Assembly: GCA_017502085.1 (NCBI GenBank) | Contig: JAFVVQ010000038.1 | Span: 1-41,696 of the forward strand | DNA from: Clostridia bacterium | GTDB taxonomy: Bacteria > Bacillota > Clostridia > Oscillospirales > Acutalibacteraceae | Length of the DNA stretch: 41,696 bases | Direction of reading: 5' to 3' | Shown: positions 24,696 to 34,926 of the stretch, one piece after another | How positions within the stretch are numbered: the stretch's first letter is position 1 | Layout: each line of letters opens with the position of its first letter | Notes under the pieces: model-generated | Databases searched by the model: none | Told to the model about the DNA's origin: nothing | The model's input: only the letters and a program-made list of their open reading frames with translations | Position numbers and translations under genes: made by a program

Positions 24696-26798
24696 TTATT
24701 CTTCAATTAATCCGTAATATCTGCCAAACCAATAGGGGAGAAGGTAGCAACTCGGTGAGCATGTGCTGGAATTGTTGCCCCAATTTGTTTCGAACGGATT
24801 GGTGTCGTAGTTATAGCAACTTTTTTCATCATAATCAAGCGGGAAAAGAAGCTGAGGAACTTCGCCCCATCGTTCCTGTTCGGTATCATAAACAAGATTT
24901 CTTCTGTTGGAGTTGAGAATAATTCTGCCGGTGTAATCCATTGGCATATCGCGTAAAGCCTTGATAGCGGAATCGATATCACAGACCTCATCGGTAAATG
25001 CACCGTAGATAAGATTAAATAACGGACTTTTTTCGCTTCGTTCATATTCCCAGTGATGTTTCATACCCATGAGGAGATATTTTCTGATTGACGGATCTTT
25101 TTCGATCCGAAGAATTGTTGCGGTGCAAAGGAAACCGAGATTGTCGTCGATATGTGTGATTCTTGCATCGTCTTTTTTATGCTGAGCCGCATTGATAAGA
25201 TAATGCTCATCGACAGCGAGACGGAGGAATTCATTTCTGTATTTTTCGTCTCCGCTTATGTGATATGCGACGTCAAGAAATGTAAGCATCTCAAGGGAAT
25301 TGATGCATTTTTCCCAGAGCCACATACTGTTTCTGTTAAGCTCATCGGGATTCCACATTGCCCATGTTGTCGGCAAGCCGTCAATATCACAGAGCTTATA
25401 ATTGTGATCGATAATGTGGTCAACTATATCGCAGAGAACTTCCCTGATGAGTTCCTTTTCTTCATCGTTCGCGCAGAAATCATAGTAAAGAGAGAATCCA
25501 AAGAAATGACCTGTCATCTCATCGCTTGAAGTTTCTCCAAGCCATTCGCAGGAACCGTCGGGAGCGGTGTGCCATTCCTCACCTGCACGATCAACTCTTG
25601 TGCCGTAGCCATCTTCGCCTTCATAACGAATAGCTCTGGCCGTAAAGCCTTTTATGCCCGTAACTTTTGTAAGTTTAACCATAGCATACATACTGCGTCT
25701 TGCGGCCTCGAGTACCTTTTCGCTCTTGGTTACTGCATACAAATAGCAAAGGGAACCGAGGTATGTATGTGTCCAGAGTCCGTCATTATCGGTGATGTTG
25801 GGCTCTCCGGTTGTTATATCGTTATTTTTGATTTTGTCGAGACCTGTTACGAACCCGTCTTTTCTGATGAAATATTTTTCAGTGAGATCAAAGCAGTATT
25901 CAGCCTTTTCTTCAAGAGTCATCGATTTCTCATAAATTCTGGTAACGCCTTCGTCTGAAGCAGTCCAGATCTCGTTACCGATGGCGATTGCATCGTTGAC
26001 TTTTTCGCAGCATACCCATCTGGTTGCGGGCAGATATTTTGCCGCACCGTTGTTGATAACTATCAGACCTGCATCGCTTGAGAGAATTACTTTACCGTCA
26101 TCTGTGAGGTCGATTGAAAATATTTCTTCTTCGGGAAGGCAGCTGATCTCTTTGTGACCGTACCAGCCGCAACGGTTATCATAGATATATGCGCCTTTAT
26201 CTGTGCCGAGCCAGATGAATCCGAGAGTCTCGTCGAAGGCGACGCAGTTGATTTTGAATTCGGGCATTGTTGAATGTTCGGGAAAAATGCACATCCAATG
26301 CTTTCTTTTGCCGGTCAGAATGCAGAGCGATCTGCCTGAGAATGATATGATATTTTCTCCCGAAACCGCAAGACCTTGTGCACGGAGATCTGTTGAATGG
26401 TGGTGAATAAATTCATCGCCGTTGAGTCTGTAAAGTACGCTTTCAGTAATAACGTAAATGATATCTTTACCGCCAATACCTTTGATTTCTTCATCGAAGG
26501 TCTTAAGCTCTTTGATTATTCCGTCTTCGCAGACATATACGGTTTTTTCGGCGGAAAAATATACTTTTTTTCCGCTTGCGTGAGCGTTTGTTACTTTTCC
26601 GCAGGCAAATGAAGCGAAAGTGCCGCCATTGTCGGAAAAGTTCAAAAAGTTCAGTCCGCTTTCTGTTCCGATGTAAACTCTGCCGTCGCAATCAGCTGCA
26701 AGGCAGAGCGCTTTGTCTGAAAGCAGTCCGTTTGATGCACCGTAGTAATCGCAGAATCTCTGAGGAAATCTGTTGCTTTTGTAACTTCCTTTTCTCAT
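24696..26798 (-). CDS. Regulator-type beta-propeller fused to a helical (alpha/alpha) domain
   Basis: 700 aa, no signal peptide. Residues about 15-300 consist of propeller repeats like those of two-component regulator propellers (Reg_prop): GLLSDKALCLAADCDGRVYIGTESGL, then IWLGTDKGAYIYD and VILSSDAGLIVINN. From about 310 the sequence is helical with tryptophans and acidic motifs (DNDGLWTHTYLGSLCYLYAVT, DEMTGHFFGFSLYYDF, RITHIDDNLGF), reminiscent of (alpha/alpha)6 toroids in glycoside hydrolases and polysaccharide lyases. I do not recognise a characterised family. A role in glycan processing is a guess. AAGGAG precedes the ATG; it is flanked by a lipoprotein and the SpoIID-like gene. Confidence 0.6.
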   Translation of the reverse strand: MRKGSYKSNRFPQRFCDYYGASNGLLSDKALCLAADCDGRVYIGTESGLNFLNFSDNGGTFASFACGKVTNAHASGKKVYFSAEKTVYVCEDGIIKELKTFDEEIKGIGGKDIIYVITESVLYRLNGDEFIHHHSTDLRAQGLAVSGENIISFSGRSLCILTGKRKHWMCIFPEHSTMPEFKINCVAFDETLGFIWLGTDKGAYIYDNRCGWYGHKEISCLPEEEIFSIDLTDDGKVILSSDAGLIVINNGAAKYLPATRWVCCEKVNDAIAIGNEIWTASDEGVTRIYEKSMTLEEKAEYCFDLTEKYFIRKDGFVTGLDKIKNNDITTGEPNITDNDGLWTHTYLGSLCYLYAVTKSEKVLEAARRSMYAMVKLTKVTGIKGFTARAIRYEGEDGYGTRVDRAGEEWHTAPDGSCEWLGETSSDEMTGHFFGFSLYYDFCANDEEKELIREVLCDIVDHIIDHNYKLCDIDGLPTTWAMWNPDELNRNSMWLWEKCINSLEMLTFLDVAYHISGDEKYRNEFLRLAVDEHYLINAAQHKKDDARITHIDDNLGFLCTATILRIEKDPSIRKYLLMGMKHHWEYERSEKSPLFNLIYGAFTDEVCDIDSAIKALRDMPMDYTGRIILNSNRRNLVYDTEQERWGEVPQLLFPLDYDEKSCYNYDTNPFETNWGNNSSTCSPSCYLLPYWFGRYYGLIEE

Positions 26799-27502: not shown

Positions 27503-28192
27503 TCACAAAATAATTGATATTTCGCCCGAGGACAGATTTTTTTCAGTATTATCGGGCAACGAAACCATCAGGTTACATTGACTGTTAATGCCTTTGACAA
27601 CAGCATTGTATTTTATATTATTTTCGGTAAACGATATGTTTTTGCCGATAATAAAAAGTCTTTTTTCGTATTCAGACAGAATCAGAGTTTCGTTTGGGTT
27701 CCTGACATAATGCAATATCGCTTCGGAAATATAAACAGCAAGTTTGTCTTTTTCGCAATCGATTCCCAGCGAACCGGCATTCGGAAGATTGTCGGGGAAA
27801 TAGCTTGTGGTCAGATTGATTCCGATTCCGAGTGAAATCAGCATTTTGCCGTTTGACTTGAAGCATTCCGAAAGAATTCCGCAAATTTTTTTGCCGTTGA
27901 GAAATATGTCGTTCACCCATTTGATTTTAGGGAGAATTCCGAAATGTTTTTCGATTGTTTTGCAAACAATCACAGCGGTTGCCGGTGTGATCAGCGGAAT
28001 TGAATCTTCGCATTCAAAAAGTAAAGTCATATAAAGACCTGTGTTTTCGGGCGAATAAAAACTGTTACCCCGTCGGCCTCTGCCATTGGTTTGGGTATTT
28101 GCGATTATCAGTGAGGGCAGGGGGAGTGTTGATGCGTTTTCTCTTGCATAAGTGCTTGTTGAGTTGAGAACATCGAATTTCAGAACGTTCAA
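27503..28192 (-). CDS. birA: Biotin--[acetyl-CoA-carboxylase] ligase, monofunctional
   Basis: 229 aa from a TTG start (28190-28192) with AAAGGTGG upstream. BirA attaches biotin to carboxylase carrier proteins through biotinyl-AMP. Seen: STSTYARENA, the biotinyl-5'-AMP loop TQTNGRGRRGNSFYSP, LYMTLLF, KWVNDIFLNGKKICGILSE and GIGINL. There is no N-terminal helix-turn-helix, so this is a class I ligase that does not repress transcription. First gene of a minus-strand operon continuing into the lipoprotein gene (overlap with its ribosome binding site). Confidence 0.92.
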   Translation of the reverse strand: MNVLKFDVLNSTSTYARENASTLPLPSLIIANTQTNGRGRRGNSFYSPENTGLYMTLLFECEDSIPLITPATAVIVCKTIEKHFGILPKIKWVNDIFLNGKKICGILSECFKSNGKMLISLGIGINLTTSYFPDNLPNAGSLGIDCEKDKLAVYISEAILHYVRNPNETLILSEYEKRLFIIGKNISFTENNIKYNAVVKGINSQCNLMVSLPDNTEKNLSSGEISIIL

Positions 28193-28222
28193 TCTGCCGC
28201 CACCTTTCTGTCATACACTGCA

Positions 28223-28251
28223 AGTATATCATATTTTCAAAACTATTTCAA
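28223..28251 (-). promoter_or_regulatory. Promoter of the birA operon
   Basis: Minus strand: TTGAAA (28246-28251), 17-bp spacer, TATACT (28223-28228), about 30 bases before the TTG start. Confidence 0.65.
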
Positions 28252-28284
28252 TGCAAAAAATTTATTATATTAATTATTAAATTA

Positions 28285-28313
28285 TTGACTTATTTTTAGA
28301 ATAGGAATATATT
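28285..28313 (+). promoter_or_regulatory. Promoter of the glycyl radical enzyme operon
   Basis: TTGACT (28285-28290), 17-bp spacer, TATATT (28308-28313); a TATAAT a few bases later is at a poorer distance. The TTG start of the activase is at 28348. Confidence 0.6.
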
Positions 28314-28347
28314 ATATAATAGACCAAATATGGGGAGGTGCAGACAC

Positions 28348-29052
28348 TTGAAGATTTTACACAAGGGGTTCAACTATTCTCAGGACGGTCCCGGAAACAG
28401 ACTTGTCTATCATCTTCAGGGATGCAATTTTGCCTGTAAATGGTGTTCGAATGCTGATACAATTCCCCGTGATAATTCCGAATCAAAGGATATTCCGATA
28501 ACTGAAATTTTTGATGAAATTCTCAGAAGCAAAATGATGTTTTTTGATGGCGGAGGCGTTACGTTCACAGGCGGCGAAGCAACTCTTCAGGCTGATGAGC
28601 TTCTTGCTCTTCTGAAAATGCTCAAAGCGGCGGATATTCACACGTGCATTGAAACAAACGCATCTTCAGAGAGGTTTTCCGAATTCTGCGATGTTGTTGA
28701 TTATTTGATAGTCGATGTGAAGCATTACGACAGTGAGCTTCATAAAAAGTGGGTCGGCAAACCGCTTGATTCGGTGCTTGAAAACGTCGCCTATGCTTTC
28801 GGTACGGGCAGACAGATTCACGTTCGTATTCCCGTAATTAACGGTGTCAACGTCAATCCCGAAGGCTTTTCGGATTGTTTCTCGCAGTTTAATACTGATA
28901 ATGCGGTTTTTGAATTCCTTGCTTATCATGAATACGGCAAGGATAAGTGGCACGGAAAATATCAGATTGAAAACGGTTTTGTTTCCGACGGAGTAATTGA
29001 TGAATTCACCCACGTGTTCGGAAAACACGGACTTAAAACGGTTTCAACATAA
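28348..29052 (+). CDS. Glycyl radical enzyme activase, single-cluster type
   Basis: 234 aa from TTG at 28348, nine bases after GGAGG (28334-28338); an ATG at 28330 overlaps that site and is unlikely. Radical SAM protein with CNFACKWC (CX3CX2C) for the 4Fe-4S cluster, DGPGNR near the start and GGVTFTGGEA for SAM binding, as in pyruvate formate-lyase activase. It should abstract a hydrogen from Gly746 of the adjacent enzyme, installing the radical. There is no cysteine-rich ferredoxin insert after the radical SAM motif, unlike most dehydratase activases. It sits 17 bases upstream of its target gene. Confidence 0.9.
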   Translation: MKILHKGFNYSQDGPGNRLVYHLQGCNFACKWCSNADTIPRDNSESKDIPITEIFDEILRSKMMFFDGGGVTFTGGEATLQADELLALLKMLKAADIHTCIETNASSERFSEFCDVVDYLIVDVKHYDSELHKKWVGKPLDSVLENVAYAFGTGRQIHVRIPVINGVNVNPEGFSDCFSQFNTDNAVFEFLAYHEYGKDKWHGKYQIENGFVSDGVIDEFTHVFGKHGLKTVST

Positions 29053-29069
29053 AAGGAGAAAAAAATAAA

Positions 29070-31394
29070 ATGACTAACATTCTTAATTCAGCAAAGATTA
29101 CTGAAATGGCGAAATCACTTTTCGCAGAGAAAAGAGCCGGTAAACGACTTGACGGCTGGTTTATCGCCAAGGAAAAAGAACTTGAGCTCTCAAAGGTTTA
29201 TGAGGGTGAAAATGAAGAAGTGAAAAAAGCACTTATCCTTCGTGACATCATCAAAACAATTCCTCTTTATCTCAGCGATTATCAGCTTTTTGCCGGCACT
29301 CAGGACGATGCTTTTGCGAGAAGCTACGCACTCATTAATCCCACCTTTAAAGTTGAAGAATTCAGCGGATACTGTGACCCGGCAGCGGTTTTCGGTGATA
29401 TTGAGCCTGACGGTGAATTCTCTGCCGAAAGAATTGCAAAGGCGAGAGCTGAATTTGCCAAGACTGAATATGCGGTCAAACTTGGCGAAGTTTACGGCGA
29501 AAATGAATGCTACACCAAAGAGGTTATTTTCTTTTTTGAGCAGGTAACGGGTCATCTGATTCCCGATATGCGTTTTGCAGTCAGATACGGCGTTAAGGAA
29601 ATGCTTAAAAAGATTGAGGGCAAAGAAGGCGACGGCTATAAGGCATTCAGGATTGCACTTGAGAGCGTTATAATCCTTGCGAACAGATATGCCGATATTG
29701 CCTCGGAGAAGAAGAAAACCGCTTCGGCAGAAAGAAAAGCTCAGCTTGATGTTATTGAAAAAACTCTTCGCAAAGTACCCGAATACGGTGCGGAAAATCT
29801 TTGCGAAGCAATTCAGTCGTTCATTCTTATGTGGCAGGTAATGTGTCTTGAGCAGACTCCCAATCCGTTTGCATTCTCTGTCGGTAATGCTGACAGAATC
29901 TTCGAGCCTTACCGCAACGGTCTTGACCGCGATACAACAGCTGCACTTCTCAAGCATTTTCTTGTTTTCTTCAACGTTGCTGACAGAAGCTGGGCAATTT
30001 CGCAGAATATCATAGTCAGCGGCAGGGACGTTGACGGTAATGATCTCACAAATGATACCACGTATGCACTTATGGATGCATATTACGATATGAATCTGCC
30101 GCAGCCTATTCTTTCGGTCAAGCTTCATAAGAATACTCCTGTAAAGCTTTACGAAGAAATGGGCAGATTCCTTTTCACTGCGGGAGCATTGACTCCTTCG
30201 TTTTTCAACGACGACTCTCTCTTTGAAGTTCTTGCATCAAAGGGCGTTGATGAATGTGATCTTCCTGATATTTCCGTTGCGGGTTGTCAGGAGCCTCTGA
30301 TTATGGGTAAAGACAATGCCAACACAACAAACAGCTGGTTCAATCTTCCGAAAATTCTTGAAATGACTCTCACGGGCGGTGTTTCCGCAATTACGGGTGA
30401 AAAACTTGTTGAGTGCGAAGTCTGTGACCTTGAAAACGTCAGAGAAGAATTTTATAAAAATGTTCAGCGTTTTGCCGATGCGATGGCTGAGGCTGCAAAC
30501 GGCGCTTCAAAGGCTCTTTCGACTCAGAGAGTGCCCTTCCTTTCTTGTTTGATGGGTGGCCTTGAAAACGGAATTGATGCAAGAGATATTAACCGTCAGG
30601 GTACGAAATATAACGGAAGCGGATGTCTCATTCACGGTGTTTCTGTTATTGCCGACAGTTTCAGTGCCATTGATAAGCTTCTTGCCGAGAGACCTGAGGA
30701 TAAAGATAAACTCGTTGATGCTCTTAAGGCGGATTTCATCGGATATGAAGAACTCCGGGAATTCCTTCTTTCAGCAGATAAGTTTGGTAATAATATCGAA
30801 AAAGTAGACACAGAAGCGGGCGAGATTGCTTCAAAGGTAGCCGATATCATCGCAAACGAGAAGAATTATCTCGGCAATCCATTCAGACCCGATTTCAGTT
30901 CACCATCAACCCATTTGCTTTACGGTTATTGGGTTGGTGCAACACCTGACGGCAGACGCTCAAGGGATATGCTCGGCTACGGTGTTGATCCGCTTTACGG
31001 CAGTGCTGAAAACGGTCTGGGATTCAGAATGCTTTCAAATATGAAGATGCCTTTTGAAAAAATGAACGGCGGATATGCATCACATCTCGGAATTGACCCT
31101 AAATACTTTAAGGGCGAATCCAATGAGGAAAAGGGTGTTGAGTTCAGAGATAAAGTCATTAATCCTCTGTTTTTCAATCCCCTCAAGGAAGGTGTTTCAC
31201 CCTTCTATCTCTACGTTAACGTTACAACTGCTGAAATTCTCCGCAAGGTTCTTGCGGATCCGAAAAAATATGCTCCGAGCGGAGTTTATATTATGAGAAT
31301 TCACGGCACGTTTGTTAATTTTCTTGATCTGTCGCCCGCAATTCAGCAGGATATTATCACAAGACTTGATCCTCAATCAACTTCTTTATGCTGA
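29070..31394 (+). CDS. Glycyl radical enzyme of unknown substrate
   Basis: 774 aa, the usual size of the pyruvate formate-lyase/dehydratase superfamily. The active-site thiyl residue is Cys406 in GCQEP (405-409), with Glu408 in the position of the base used by glycerol, propanediol and choline-lyase type enzymes (GCVEP). The glycyl radical is Gly746 in RIHGTF; most relatives have R-V-S/A-G-Y. Also visible: KYNGSGCLIHGVSVIADSFSAI and the C-terminal IQQDIITRLD. It is not pyruvate formate-lyase, which has two adjacent active-site cysteines. The neighbours (activase, sedoheptulokinase-like kinase, phosphomannose-isomerase-like protein) point to a sugar or polyol substrate, not a choline or amino-acid one. 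Cytosolic and oxygen-sensitive. Confidence 0.92.
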   Translation: MTNILNSAKITEMAKSLFAEKRAGKRLDGWFIAKEKELELSKVYEGENEEVKKALILRDIIKTIPLYLSDYQLFAGTQDDAFARSYALINPTFKVEEFSGYCDPAAVFGDIEPDGEFSAERIAKARAEFAKTEYAVKLGEVYGENECYTKEVIFFFEQVTGHLIPDMRFAVRYGVKEMLKKIEGKEGDGYKAFRIALESVIILANRYADIASEKKKTASAERKAQLDVIEKTLRKVPEYGAENLCEAIQSFILMWQVMCLEQTPNPFAFSVGNADRIFEPYRNGLDRDTTAALLKHFLVFFNVADRSWAISQNIIVSGRDVDGNDLTNDTTYALMDAYYDMNLPQPILSVKLHKNTPVKLYEEMGRFLFTAGALTPSFFNDDSLFEVLASKGVDECDLPDISVAGCQEPLIMGKDNANTTNSWFNLPKILEMTLTGGVSAITGEKLVECEVCDLENVREEFYKNVQRFADAMAEAANGASKALSTQRVPFLSCLMGGLENGIDARDINRQGTKYNGSGCLIHGVSVIADSFSAIDKLLAERPEDKDKLVDALKADFIGYEELREFLLSADKFGNNIEKVDTEAGEIASKVADIIANEKNYLGNPFRPDFSSPSTHLLYGYWVGATPDGRRSRDMLGYGVDPLYGSAENGLGFRMLSNMKMPFEKMNGGYASHLGIDPKYFKGESNEEKGVEFRDKVINPLFFNPLKEGVSPFYLYVNVTTAEILRKVLADPKKYAPSGVYIMRIHGTFVNFLDLSPAIQQDIITRLDPQSTSLC

Positions 31395-31406
31395 GGAGGA
31401 TAAAAA

Positions 31407-32699
31407 TTGAAGGTTATTGGTATTGATATCGGTACTACAAGTATCTGCGGAGTTATTGCCGATGCGGTTAGCGGTGAAATTGTCAAATCCGTCACTCTGC
31501 CGAACACGTCGTTTATTATCACCGATAAAGAATATGAACGCATTCAGGATACCGATGTGATTATGGATACGGTTTATAAGATCCTTGATGAACTCGATGC
31601 AAAGAGTGCTGATGTCATCGGTTTTTCGGGTCAGATGCACGGAATTGTTTATACCGATGCAAATGGTAATGCCGTCAGCCCTCTTTATATCTGGCAGGAT
31701 ACGAGAGCAAATCTTGAGTATAAAGACGGCAGAAGTTATGCGGAGATTCTCGGATGCTTTGCAGGTTACGGTCTTGCAACCGACTTTTATAATTCAGTAA
31801 ACGGACTTATACCTGAAAATGCAAAATACCTTTGCACCGTTGCCGATTATGCGGTTATGCAGCTTTGCGGTAATAAGATTCCCGTTTGCCATATCACCAA
31901 CGCAGCGAGTCTCGGTTGCTTCGACGTTGAGAAAAATGTGTTTAAAATTGATAATCCGAGACTCCCTGAGGTTGAAACCGGTTTTGTTTCTTGCGGAAAT
32001 TATAACGGCGTACCTGTCTGTGTTGCTCTCGGAGATAATCAGGCCAGTTTTATAGGTTCGGTCAGAAATACCGCCGATGTTCTTTTGAACGTTGGTACGG
32101 GTGCTCAGATTTCGTGGTTATCAGAATCTCCTGTCAAGGCTGAGTCGGTTGAAATCAGACCTTTTGACGGTAAACGTTATCTTATGGCGGGTTGTTCTCT
32201 TTGCGGAGGCAGAGCTTATGCGATGTTTGAAAAATTCTGCAGAGAAATTGCATTGACCGCAGGTGCGGATATTGATTCGTTTTACCCGTTTCTTGATAAA
32301 ATGCTTCTGTCAAAAAAACGTTCCGAAATAATTGGTGATTGCCGTTTTTGCGGCACCCGAAATAATCCGCATCTCAGAGGTTCGTATTCGGGTATATCTG
32401 AAAACAATTTTACCCCGGCGGATTTTGCATATGCAACGCTTGACGGCATGGCTGCGGAGCTTTTTGATATGTATGCCTCCGCAGATAAAAGGGCATCGGG
32501 ACTTGTTTGTTCCGGCAACGGTATACGAAAGAATGCCGCACTCAGAAAAATTGTTTCCGATAAATTCGGATGCGGAATAAAAATTCCTCTTTATGAAGAG
32601 GAAGCGGCTTACGGAGCAGCTCTTTCTGCTGTTGTTGGCGGTGGAATATCTGCAGATATTGATTCGGCTTGCTCGATAATAAAATATAAGGATGAATGA
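31407..32699 (+). CDS. FGGY kinase, sedoheptulokinase-like
   Basis: 430 aa from TTG at 31407, six bases after GAGGAGGA. FGGY kinases phosphorylate ketoses and polyols. The ATP motif GIDIGTTS (4-11), SGQMHGIVY (about 74-82), WQDTRA, ALGDNQASF (catalytic Asp near 210), NVGTGAQISWL and the C-terminal VCSGNGIRKNAAL with EEEAAYGAAL follow the pattern of sedoheptulokinases (CARKL/SHPK) more closely than xylulokinase or glycerol kinase. Product is probably a ketose or polyol phosphate; actual substrate unknown. It is 12 bases after the glycyl radical enzyme gene and overlaps the next gene by four bases (ATGA). Confidence 0.88.
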   Translation: MKVIGIDIGTTSICGVIADAVSGEIVKSVTLPNTSFIITDKEYERIQDTDVIMDTVYKILDELDAKSADVIGFSGQMHGIVYTDANGNAVSPLYIWQDTRANLEYKDGRSYAEILGCFAGYGLATDFYNSVNGLIPENAKYLCTVADYAVMQLCGNKIPVCHITNAASLGCFDVEKNVFKIDNPRLPEVETGFVSCGNYNGVPVCVALGDNQASFIGSVRNTADVLLNVGTGAQISWLSESPVKAESVEIRPFDGKRYLMAGCSLCGGRAYAMFEKFCREIALTAGADIDSFYPFLDKMLLSKKRSEIIGDCRFCGTRNNPHLRGSYSGISENNFTPADFAYATLDGMAAELFDMYASADKRASGLVCSGNGIRKNAALRKIVSDKFGCGIKIPLYEEEAAYGAALSAVVGGGISADIDSACSIIKYKDE

Positions 32700-33751
32700 T
32701 TATGGCGTTTGATAATCCTATCAGATATGAAAAGAATTTCTATAATTTTCCCATATTTTTTGAGAAAAACAGAGTTTTCAGGGTTTATACAGGAGGAAAA
32801 CTTTTTTCGGAATTTTTCGGAGATGATTCTACGGACGGGTTTTATCCCGAAGAGTGGGTTGCTTCAAGTGTGAGAGCACTGAACGAAGGCAGCACCGATG
32901 AACACGAAGGCGTTTCGAAAATCAGAAATTCCGATGTGTATTTTGATGAAATACTTGAAAAATACCGAAAGGAGCTTCTCGGTAAAAGAGAGGATCTCGG
33001 TATTCTGACAAAGATTCTTGACAGCGCGATCAGACTTCCCGTTCAGGCTCATCCCGACAAGGCTTTTTCCGAAAAGTATTTCAATTCAAAATACGGTAAG
33101 GAAGAATGCTGGATTATTCTCGCAACCAGACCCGGTGCAAAGATTTTCTTCGGTTTCAAAGAAGGGACAACCAAGGAAGATTTTATTGCCGCAATTGAAG
33201 CGAGTGAAAACGGCGGAAACGCAATGGAAGATCTGCTTTGCTCCATTGATGTGAAGGTCGGAGACGTAATTTATATTCCCGCTAAAATGGTTCATGCAAT
33301 CGGATACGGTTGTCTGCTTCTTGAAGTTCAGGAGCCTACCGATTTCACTATTCAGCCGGAGCGCTGGTGCGGTGAATATAAGCTTTCCGACAGAGAAATG
33401 TATCTCGGACTTGACAGAGAACAGGCTCTTGAGTGCTTTGATATGGATAAACGTTATCCTGCTCCGCTTGAATCTCAGGTTATTTCGGACGGAAACGGTG
33501 TTCTTTATGAGTCAATTATCAATTCCGATATCACCACGAGCTTTACCGTAAATATGGTAACGATAGATGACGGATTTTTTGTTTTTCATAACAGTGCCGC
33601 TATATATGTAGTTATTGAAGGCGAAGGCATTATTTCGGGGGACTGTTATTACCGTGACGTTAAAAAAGGGGATTATTTTATGATTCCCCATAGTGCCGTA
33701 TGCAGATACACTGTCAGCGGCAAATTGAAGATTGTTGAATGTTTTGCTTGA
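32696..33751 (+). CDS. Type I mannose-6-phosphate isomerase-like protein
   Basis: 351 aa. Zinc-site motifs of type I phosphomannose isomerase: PVQAHPDKAFSEKYF (Gln and His, about 115-129), GKEECWIIL (Glu about 134), PAKMVHAIG (His about 202), and EVQEPTDFT. These interconvert aldose- and ketose-6-phosphates. The N-terminus carries about 60 residues with FRVYTGGKLFSEFFGD before the usual EEWVASS block. Start at 32696 overlaps the kinase stop (ATGA); an ATG at 32702 is an alternative. In this operon it may isomerise the product of the kinase and not mannose-6-phosphate itself. Annotated manA by homology only. Confidence 0.85.
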   Translation: MIMAFDNPIRYEKNFYNFPIFFEKNRVFRVYTGGKLFSEFFGDDSTDGFYPEEWVASSVRALNEGSTDEHEGVSKIRNSDVYFDEILEKYRKELLGKREDLGILTKILDSAIRLPVQAHPDKAFSEKYFNSKYGKEECWIILATRPGAKIFFGFKEGTTKEDFIAAIEASENGGNAMEDLLCSIDVKVGDVIYIPAKMVHAIGYGCLLLEVQEPTDFTIQPERWCGEYKLSDREMYLGLDREQALECFDMDKRYPAPLESQVISDGNGVLYESIINSDITTSFTVNMVTIDDGFFVFHNSAAIYVVIEGEGIISGDCYYRDVKKGDYFMIPHSAVCRYTVSGKLKIVECFA

Positions 33752-33766
33752 TTGCGAGGTTAATAT

Positions 33767-34540
33767 ATGAAAAAAATTATAAGTATTCTTTCGGTTATTC
33801 TTTCTTTTGTGCTTCTTCTTGCCGGATGCAATAATTCAGGTTATATCGACGATATCAAAAATATGACCAAGCCGACGGACCTGAATGAAAGTATTACTGA
33901 ATACGTTCCTGAATTCGTAACTTTCGAATATGACGACAACGGCAATATTATCTATACGCAGGGCGAGGCGGATGCTCCTTCTTCGGAAGAGACTTCATCT
34001 GATTCCGCAGATAACGGTTCGGGAGAGGTTACAGAATCCGTTGAAATTGCAAAGCATCAGAAGGTCAGATTTACTATGAAGGACGGCGGAAGCTTTGTTA
34101 TTGAACTTTATCCCGAGTATGCTCCCGAAACCTGTGCCAATTTCGTTAAGCTTGTCAGTGAAGGTTTTTACGACGGGCTGACTTTCCATAGAATTATCCG
34201 CGGATTTATGGCTCAGGGCGGTGAGAATATCAACAAAGAACCCGAATCAATAAAAGGTGAATTCAAGGCGAACGGTTTTGATGCAAACGTTATTGCACAT
34301 ACAAGAGGCGTTGTGTCGATGGCACGTACCAATGACCCTGATTCTGCATCCTCACAGTTCTTTATCTGCTATGACCATGCTCCGCATCTTGACGGCGCCT
34401 ATGCCGCATTCGGTCTTGTTGTTGAAGGTATGGAGGTTGTTGACGATTTCCTTAAGATTGAAAGAACACTGGGTAATGACAGAGAACTTTCAAAGCCCGT
34501 AACTCCCATTGTTATTGAAAAAGCGGAGGTTATCGGATGA
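33767..34540 (+). CDS. Lipoprotein peptidyl-prolyl isomerase, cyclophilin type
   Basis: 257 aa. Lipobox LLAGC places Cys21 as lipidated residue; a low-complexity acidic Ser/Glu linker covers about 70-90. From about residue 95 a cyclophilin domain: FTMKDGGSFVIELYPEYAPETCANFV, FYDGLTFHRIIRGFMAQGG, SMARTNDPDSASSQFFI and HLDGAYAAFG, with the catalytic Arg in FHRI and the MAR/QFF pocket residues. It assists folding of exported proteins outside the membrane. Its stop overlaps the start of a SecB-like gene by four bases, linking two protein-export functions. Confidence 0.92.
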   Translation: MKKIISILSVILSFVLLLAGCNNSGYIDDIKNMTKPTDLNESITEYVPEFVTFEYDDNGNIIYTQGEADAPSSEETSSDSADNGSGEVTESVEIAKHQKVRFTMKDGGSFVIELYPEYAPETCANFVKLVSEGFYDGLTFHRIIRGFMAQGGENINKEPESIKGEFKANGFDANVIAHTRGVVSMARTNDPDSASSQFFICYDHAPHLDGAYAAFGLVVEGMEVVDDFLKIERTLGNDRELSKPVTPIVIEKAEVIG

Positions 34541-34926
34541 GCAACGTTTCGTTCAAAAGCTTCAGGGCAACCGAAATCGAGTTTATCAACAAACACGATA
34601 ACGGCACAAGAATTGAATTTGAAAACAAGTATACCTATAACGTGAAATATAATCAGAATAATCTCTGTATGGGTGAATTCACAGTAGAGGTTTTTGATAA
34701 AAACAATAAGGAAAAATTTCATATCAAAGCAGTTATGTGCGGCATTTTCAGCTATAATCCCGAGGTTAAGAAAGAAGTACTTCACGTTGAAACTTTCAAA
34801 GAAATTTTTCCGTATGCCAGAACGATGATTTCTTCTCTGACGGTCAATGCGGGTCTTCCGCCTGTTATTATTCCCTCGTTTGATATTGAAAAGCAAAGTA
34901 TCTATAAATTCGGCAAGAACTGCTGA
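34537..34926 (+). CDS. SecB-like chaperone
   Basis: 129 aa. The central beta-sheet (GTRIEFENKYTYNVKYNQNN, CMGEFTVEVFDKNNKEKFHIKAVMCGIF) and the C-terminal FKEIFPYARTMISSLTVNAGLPPVIIPSFD match the SecB fold, where FPYAR-x-x-I-x-x-L and G-LPP-hydrophobic-P are the family signature. SecB keeps preproteins unfolded for SecA. Classical SecB is proteobacterial; Firmicutes relatives are mostly toxin-antitoxin-associated or unstudied. No toxin is adjacent, and the overlap with a lipoprotein cyclophilin suggests a role in export. Function is an inference from fold. Confidence 0.7.
   Translation: MSNVSFKSFRATEIEFINKHDNGTRIEFENKYTYNVKYNQNNLCMGEFTVEVFDKNNKEKFHIKAVMCGIFSYNPEVKKEVLHVETFKEIFPYARTMISSLTVNAGLPPVIIPSFDIEKQSIYKFGKNC

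Follow-up and report, generated by a model that had tools for sequence, protein, structure and literature searches.

A clostridial glycyl radical enzyme family encoded with an FGGY kinase and often a ManA-like protein, and its possible part in sugar fermentation

The operon and its partners in other genomes

The 41,696-nucleotide stretch of Clostridia bacterium DNA analyzed here (contig JAFVVQ010000038.1 of assembly GCA_017502085.1, family Acutalibacteraceae; hereafter the window) carries a set of four genes for a radical S-adenosylmethionine (SAM) activase, a glycyl radical enzyme (GRE), an FGGY-family sugar kinase and a ManA-like protein. The GRE belongs to a family of oxygen-sensitive enzymes of gut Clostridia that probably breaks a C-O bond in a sugar-like compound and so enables its fermentation. 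The features of the locus are as follows.

28285..28313, + strand: promoter-like site TTGACT-17-TATATT, 10 of 12 matches
28348..29052, + strand: radical SAM activase, 234 amino acids from a TTG start, with CX3CX2C and no Cys-rich insert of the longer activases
29070..31394, + strand: GRE, 774 amino acids, first row of family alignment A1
29553..29555, + strand: His162 codon of the GRE, invariant in 52 of 52 rows and matching the GH motif of glycerol dehydratase in the alignment
30285..30293, + strand: Cys406-Gln407-Glu408 codons of the GRE (GCQEP), putative thiyl Cys and general-base Glu by homology
31296..31316, + strand: glycyl loop RIHGTFV of the GRE (Arg743-Val749), with the Gly746 codon at 31305-31307
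31407..32699, + strand: FGGY-family sugar kinase, 430 amino acids, TTG start behind GGAGG
32696..33751, + strand: ManA-like two-domain cupin, 351 amino acids, with His119, Glu137 and His200 kept and the Arg of ManA's TYR motif replaced by Gln220

The coordinates of the open reading frames (ORFs) bear out the compact layout described in an earlier note on this DNA, with gaps of 17 and 12 bases and one 4-base overlap, and Pfam places the four products in the radical SAM, PF02901 (PFL-like), FGGY_N plus FGGY_C, and PMI_typeI_cat plus MPI_cupin_dom families, respectively. The activase frame can also be read from an ATG at 28330 (28330-29052, 240 amino acids), but the TTG at 28348, which lies behind GGGGAGG, is the likelier start. 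The note had given the genes a promoter of their own; the site at 28285 is indeed present, but the window holds only slightly more sites of this kind than chance predicts (17 found, 11.2 expected, standard deviation 3.3).

Gene neighborhoods were surveyed within 8 kb of the GRE at 94 loci, 80 of which were kept after dropping 14 with less than 4 kb downstream; one pair (L034 and L120) is a duplicate. On the same strand as the GRE, the FGGY kinase was found at 73 of the 80 loci, the activase at 72, the ManA-like gene at 44 and a GntR regulator at 7. Counted on either strand, the neighbors include ROK (14/80), GH38 (8/80, one locus counted twice), a ribose-type ABC ATPase (7/80), an XylB-type kinase (6/80), aldose epimerase (4/80), aldo-keto reductase (3/80) and a gene of the fructose-6-phosphate aldolase (FSA) family (3/80). 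Since many loci come from related species, they are not independent. Among the seven loci lacking the kinase, an XylB-type kinase takes its place in L059, L061 and L071, while L043, L073, L076 and L077 have neither. The activases also differ in build: that of the window has 234 amino acids and 6 cysteines, and those of L058, L061 and L082 have 288-290 amino acids, 12-13 cysteines and a Cys-rich insert.

A phylogenetic profile of 291 Clostridia genomes, with thresholds of at least 400 bits for the kinase and at least 500 bits for the ManA-like subfamily, shows the same association. The kinase occurs in 29 genomes, comprising 14 of the 15 GRE-positive ones and 15 of the 276 GRE-negative ones, and the ManA-like subfamily in 10 (9/15 versus 1/276; the next match scores 252 bits). 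Fisher values are 4e-15 and 1e-12, respectively, and are nominal because the genomes are related. G070 has the kinase only as a 224-bit fragment, and G079 has the ManA-like gene and the GRE on different contigs. The genome with the ManA-like gene and no GRE (G248) shares its genus with three GRE-positive genomes; its contig breaks off within the kinase gene, beyond which the GRE would be expected. With exceptions, the kinase and the ManA-like protein are therefore conserved with the GRE in other genomes, both beside it and by profile, the outcome that the proposal in the note required.

A glycyl radical enzyme family apart from known groups

Among the best 80 of 96 loci confirmed in a contig scan, the GRE is 60-94% identical to the window protein, and the 52 rows of family alignment A1 are 60-88% identical to it. 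Members were found in Blautia schinkii DSM 10518, Claveliimonas bilis c-25 and Bilifractor porci. In 14 of the 15 genomes found GRE-positive by the profile search, the window genome among them, matches reach at least 871 bits, some of them split between contigs, while the best clearly non-family match in the 291 genomes has 269 bits. G126 carries a GRE fragment of 105 residues at a contig end (L164:3-317); it shows 79% identity to the window protein and includes the RIHGTF loop. A phylum sample of 398 genomes, mostly of other classes (ordered by kinship, with 15 genomes of the window's class preceding the others), has the family only in the window genome. Searches at family and order level, covering 4 to 22 genomes each, led nowhere, and the 46 records returned by a plasmid search are all below 60% identity (24.5-25.2% in the 10 listed).

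For comparison we assembled 19 other GREs, namely PflD, YbiW, 16 from the class search and one that lies beside the family in L041. Their identity to the window GRE is 21-29% (24.2% for PflD and 21.0% for YbiW). The barrel domain PF02901 matches the window protein with 326 bits against a cut-off of 24.3, yet all ten matching NCBIfam models stay under their cut-offs, the best being TIGR01774 (PFL2/glycerol dehydratase family) with 226 bits against 678, a cut-off exceeded by 9 of 10 other GREs scanned. By sequence, the family is thus a tight, isolated clade outside PflD, YbiW and every named GRE group tested. Membership in a characterized family of known non-sugar substrate would have refuted the proposal in the note; the GRE clusters with none of the characterized families compared. 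Pyruvate formate-lyase, which carries an adjacent Cys pair, had already been dismissed in the note, and we concur, since the window protein has a single invariant Cys in GCQEP and scores 68.5 bits with TIGR01255 against a cut-off of 994. We also rejected identities as a hydroxyproline, choline, sulfopropanediol or arylacetate enzyme on the basis of scores under the NCBIfam cut-offs. Two loci hold further GREs of about 736 amino acids (L041:5872-8082 and L115:1276-3486), in which the active-site Cys stands in GCNW or GCNQ and lacks the Glu two positions later; that of L041 is encoded directly upstream of the family operon and has its own activase. The other PFL-type gene of the window genome (G000:C50:14466-16225) is split into two overlapping matches that differ in frame, and one of them contains a TGA; this is a frameshift or an assembly error.

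The catalytic residues were found where the note had placed them. Cys406 is conserved in 52 of 52 rows of the alignment and Gly746 in all 51 rows that reach it, and His162, Glu408 and Thr420 are likewise invariant in 52 of 52 rows. A His stands at the position of His162 in 17 of the 19 other GREs, with Glu in L108 (CutC-like) and L113, and glycerol dehydratase, PflD and YbiW have counterparts of His162, Cys406 and Glu408; the roles given to these residues below are suggested by this homology. The glycyl loop reads RIHGTFV in all 51 rows reaching it (one row is cut short), in contrast to RVxG(Y/F) in all 19 other GREs, and is preceded by a three-residue insertion absent from those 19. The family lacks a stretch of about 13 residues ahead of WAISQN, as do several of the 19. 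Pfam Gly_radical (PF01228) gives no match at E<=10 in three of three family members, whereas five of five control GREs match with 49-127 bits. Despite this failure of the C-terminal domain, the barrel, Cys, Gly and activase identify the family as part of the GRE superfamily. Surveys relying on the Gly_radical domain and on NCBIfam GRE cut-offs could overlook it, as it is missed by the former and falls under the latter. For many of the abundant GREs in gut bacteria no function is known, according to a review (PMC11574389); the few partners of this family lend themselves to testing, and it is found in named strains.

Glycerol dehydratase is the best solved relative by profile (285 bits, followed by PflD with 215 and YbiW with 162). 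In comparison with its structure 1r8w, the family keeps the His-Cys-Glu set, but in the profile alignment has Phe/Tyr267-Ala268 in place of His281-Ser282 of the glycerol site, and Thr420 in place of Asp447 (1r8w numbering). The genes around the family GRE are, in addition, of sugar type.

A candidate radical route for sugar-type compounds

The kinase contains the FGGY_N and FGGY_C domains of XylB-type enzymes but is about 50-70 residues shorter, and its best NCBIfam match, xylulokinase TIGR01312, reaches 100 bits against a cut-off of 380. The label 'sedoheptulokinase-like' in the note was not confirmed, as no returned model or solved structure has that name; the nearest solved structures include glycerol kinases. 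We inspected 15 loci with a relative of the kinase and no GRE (L144-L158). The kinase adjoins, by Pfam, a GH32 gene in L157 and a DUF2961 gene in L152, and, by likeness of the first residues, a DUF2961 gene in L154 and L155; the remaining 11 of these loci show neither type of neighbor. The pairing with DUF2961 (GH172) lies at L152:1289-3659, L154:3922-6277 and L155:7499-9860, in genomes that have no GRE of the family. These neighbors at 4 of 15 loci fit a ketose kinase. In a rough kinase tree, with the mis-trimmed L157 row disregarded, some GRE-less kinases group among the GRE-linked ones and others lie outside them.

The fourth protein is related to type I mannose-6-phosphate isomerase (ManA), and its His119, Glu137 and His200 align with 1qwr. 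It differs in having Gln220 for the Arg of the TYR motif, the active-site Arg of ManA, and in scoring 86 bits with TIGR00218 against a cut-off of 116. Because a separate ManA above the cut-off is encoded on another contig of the window genome and the subfamily follows the distribution of the GRE, we rejected an ordinary role as mannose-6-phosphate isomerase; lacking the TYR Arg, the protein could do something else. The note had proposed that an isomerase channels a deoxyketose into glycolysis. This step is not supported, since a 1-deoxyketose lacks the C1 hydroxyl that an aldose-ketose isomerase would need and the protein has Gln in place of the TYR Arg.

In Escherichia coli, the GREs YbiW and PflD convert 1,5-anhydroglucitol-6-phosphate (1,5-AG6P) and 1,5-anhydromannitol-6-phosphate (1,5-AM6P), after uptake by the phosphotransferase system (PTS), to 1-deoxyfructose-6-phosphate, according to PMC12441222. 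In that genome fsaA is next to ybiY-ybiW, and pflD is surrounded by genes of the PTS. FSA (FsaA/FsaB) and GldA reportedly complete the route to 1,2-propanediol, as in the work of Ma et al. 2024. The family described here shares with these systems a GRE with GC-x-E and an adjacent activase, an FSA-family gene near some members and a glycerol dehydrogenase gene near one. It differs in a GRE identity of 21-24%, a divergent glycyl loop and a ManA-like partner; the window operon has an FGGY kinase in place of a PTS gene, and FSA or transaldolase was not found in the window genome. No PTS gene was found in the window operon, the part of the genome searched for one. By analogy, the family GRE may work like PflD and YbiW.

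Clues to a pathway come from related loci. L058 (Blautia schinkii) has the order activase, GRE, GntR, kinase, FSA and XylB-type kinase, and in L061 (Dorea D27) an FSA gene lies on the opposite strand, some 1.6 kb past the GRE. Both aldolases pass the cut-off of NF009299 and share Gln59 and Tyr131, the FSA signature, with E. coli FsaA. The aldolase-type protein encoded between GRE and kinase in L121 passes TIGR00875 and was rejected as an FSA, as it has Glu and Phe at the signature sites, like transaldolases. In L059 (Claveliimonas bilis), a glycerol dehydrogenase gene (391 bits, cut-off 336) lies 98 bases past the GntR gene on the opposite strand. Other operon mates are a GH38 alpha-mannosidase in fusion with an aldo-keto reductase domain, encoded shortly after the kinase (L120:6334-9732), DUF2961 with a GDSL esterase (L128), GH32 (L043), GH2 (L033) and RhaA-RhaD (L037), and L130 has a lyxose/mannose isomerase family gene with aldose epimerase and PfkB, the isomerase being present by likeness in L161 as well. 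The suggestion of sugar-type chemistry in the note is supported, apart from the isomerase step, by the aldolase, glycerol dehydrogenase, ribose-type ABC transporter and glycoside hydrolase genes of related loci.

The Cys-Glu-His set, the kinase and the FSA or GldA of some relatives fit an eliminase whose product, a 1-deoxyketose, is then phosphorylated and split. Our favored reading, held tentatively, is that the GRE acts as an eliminase cleaving a C-O bond in a six-carbon polyol derived from a sugar, likeliest a 1,5-anhydrohexitol taken into the cell unphosphorylated, in a kinase-dependent, PTS-free radical glycolysis. The activase would install the radical on Gly746, the thiyl of Cys406 would abstract hydrogen from the carbon bearing the C2 hydroxyl, and Glu408 would deprotonate that hydroxyl. 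Cleavage of the C1-O (ring) bond with the help of His162 would then yield the 1-deoxyketose, which the FGGY kinase would phosphorylate, at C6 by analogy, replacing the PTS of the E. coli PflD/YbiW route. An aldolase would split the deoxyketose phosphate into glyceraldehyde-3-phosphate and hydroxyacetone, and the latter would be reduced to 1,2-propanediol. If true, radical fermentation of sugar-type compounds extends to organisms using a kinase instead of the PTS, and its likely products are hydroxyacetone and 1,2-propanediol. Our searches, which covered the open-access literature, returned no paper that links GREs with FGGY kinases, with anhydroglucitol, or with a kinase and deoxyfructose.

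Several observations weigh against this scheme. Identity of the GRE to PflD (24%) and YbiW (21%) is low, and the ManA-like protein tracks the GRE yet gets no clear step. The strongest counterevidence for the window itself is that no match to FSA or transaldolase (PF00923) was found in its genome, which is only 84.5% complete, and FSA-family genes lie within 8 kb at only 3 of 80 loci, the one in L121 with the transaldolase-like Glu and Phe. In G126, no kinase or ManA-like match was found at the thresholds used, either in the 8.7 kb after the GRE fragment or elsewhere.

Alternatively, the order of steps could be reversed, with the FGGY kinase replacing the PTS by phosphorylating the polyol or anhydrohexitol first and the GRE acting on the phosphate. 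Some FGGY kinases phosphorylate polyols such as glycerol, and the glycerol kinases among the nearest structures point the same way, as do the 6-phosphates that PflD and YbiW take as substrates (PMC12441222). We consider this order unlikely, as the GRE-less kinase relatives beside GH32 or DUF2961-type genes at 4 of 15 loci suggest a ketose substrate. Less likely again is a GRE that dehydrates a linear hexitol such as mannitol, abstracting hydrogen at C2 and losing the C1 hydroxyl to give the same 1-deoxyketose with no ring opening. The same downstream genes would fit, the members in L059, L061, L066 and L068 have zinc alcohol dehydrogenases or an aldo-keto reductase nearby, and manno-type enzymes recur (GH38, ManA-like, lyxose/mannose isomerase), but to our knowledge no GRE acts on linear sugar alcohols longer than C3.

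A further version, which we regard as doubtful, would give the ManA-like protein a step: a GRE with a remodeled glycyl domain would open or dehydrate an unphosphorylated sugar polyol independently of a PTS, and in many members a ManA-fold metal cupin without the TYR Arg would do, after the kinase, what FSA does elsewhere. L058 and L061, which have the FSA-signature aldolases, have no ManA-like gene, and none of the 44 loci with a ManA-like gene has an FSA-signature gene within 8 kb, L121 having the transaldolase-like one. That the GRE acts on a non-sugar substrate beside incidental neighbors is improbable; the kinase is missing at 7 of 80 loci, the ManA-like gene at 36 of 80 and both in G126, but the kinase and the ManA-like subfamily strongly co-occur with the GRE, and sugar transporters, sugar-type regulators and glycosidases lie near some members. 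Radical cleavage of glycosyl-glycerol or a similar polyol glycoside, with the sugar itself as leaving group and kinase and isomerase processing it once freed, seems very improbable even with mannose-type enzymes next to some members (GH38 at 8 of 80 loci, the lyxose/mannose isomerase set in L130 and L161), as the same clusters hold hydrolases able to do that job and we know of no precedent among GREs.

Flanking genes

A cyclophilin gene follows 15 bases past 33751 on the same strand, in a run of same-strand ORFs that extends to about 38612, and the operon may extend beyond 33751. Because of this run, the four-gene unit was defined by comparison across genomes and not by the window. The block after the ManA-like gene is kept among near relatives, while elsewhere the conserved unit stops at the ManA-like gene or earlier. 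The downstream cyclophilin, SecB-like, TauE and alanine racemase genes were rejected as pathway members, as they are kept mainly in near relatives. An Rfam scan of positions 27900-34600 gave no match. On the minus strand, positions 24696-26798 encode a 700-amino-acid protein with no Pfam or NCBIfam match at E<=0.001, whose gene is kept beside a biotin ligase gene in near relatives.

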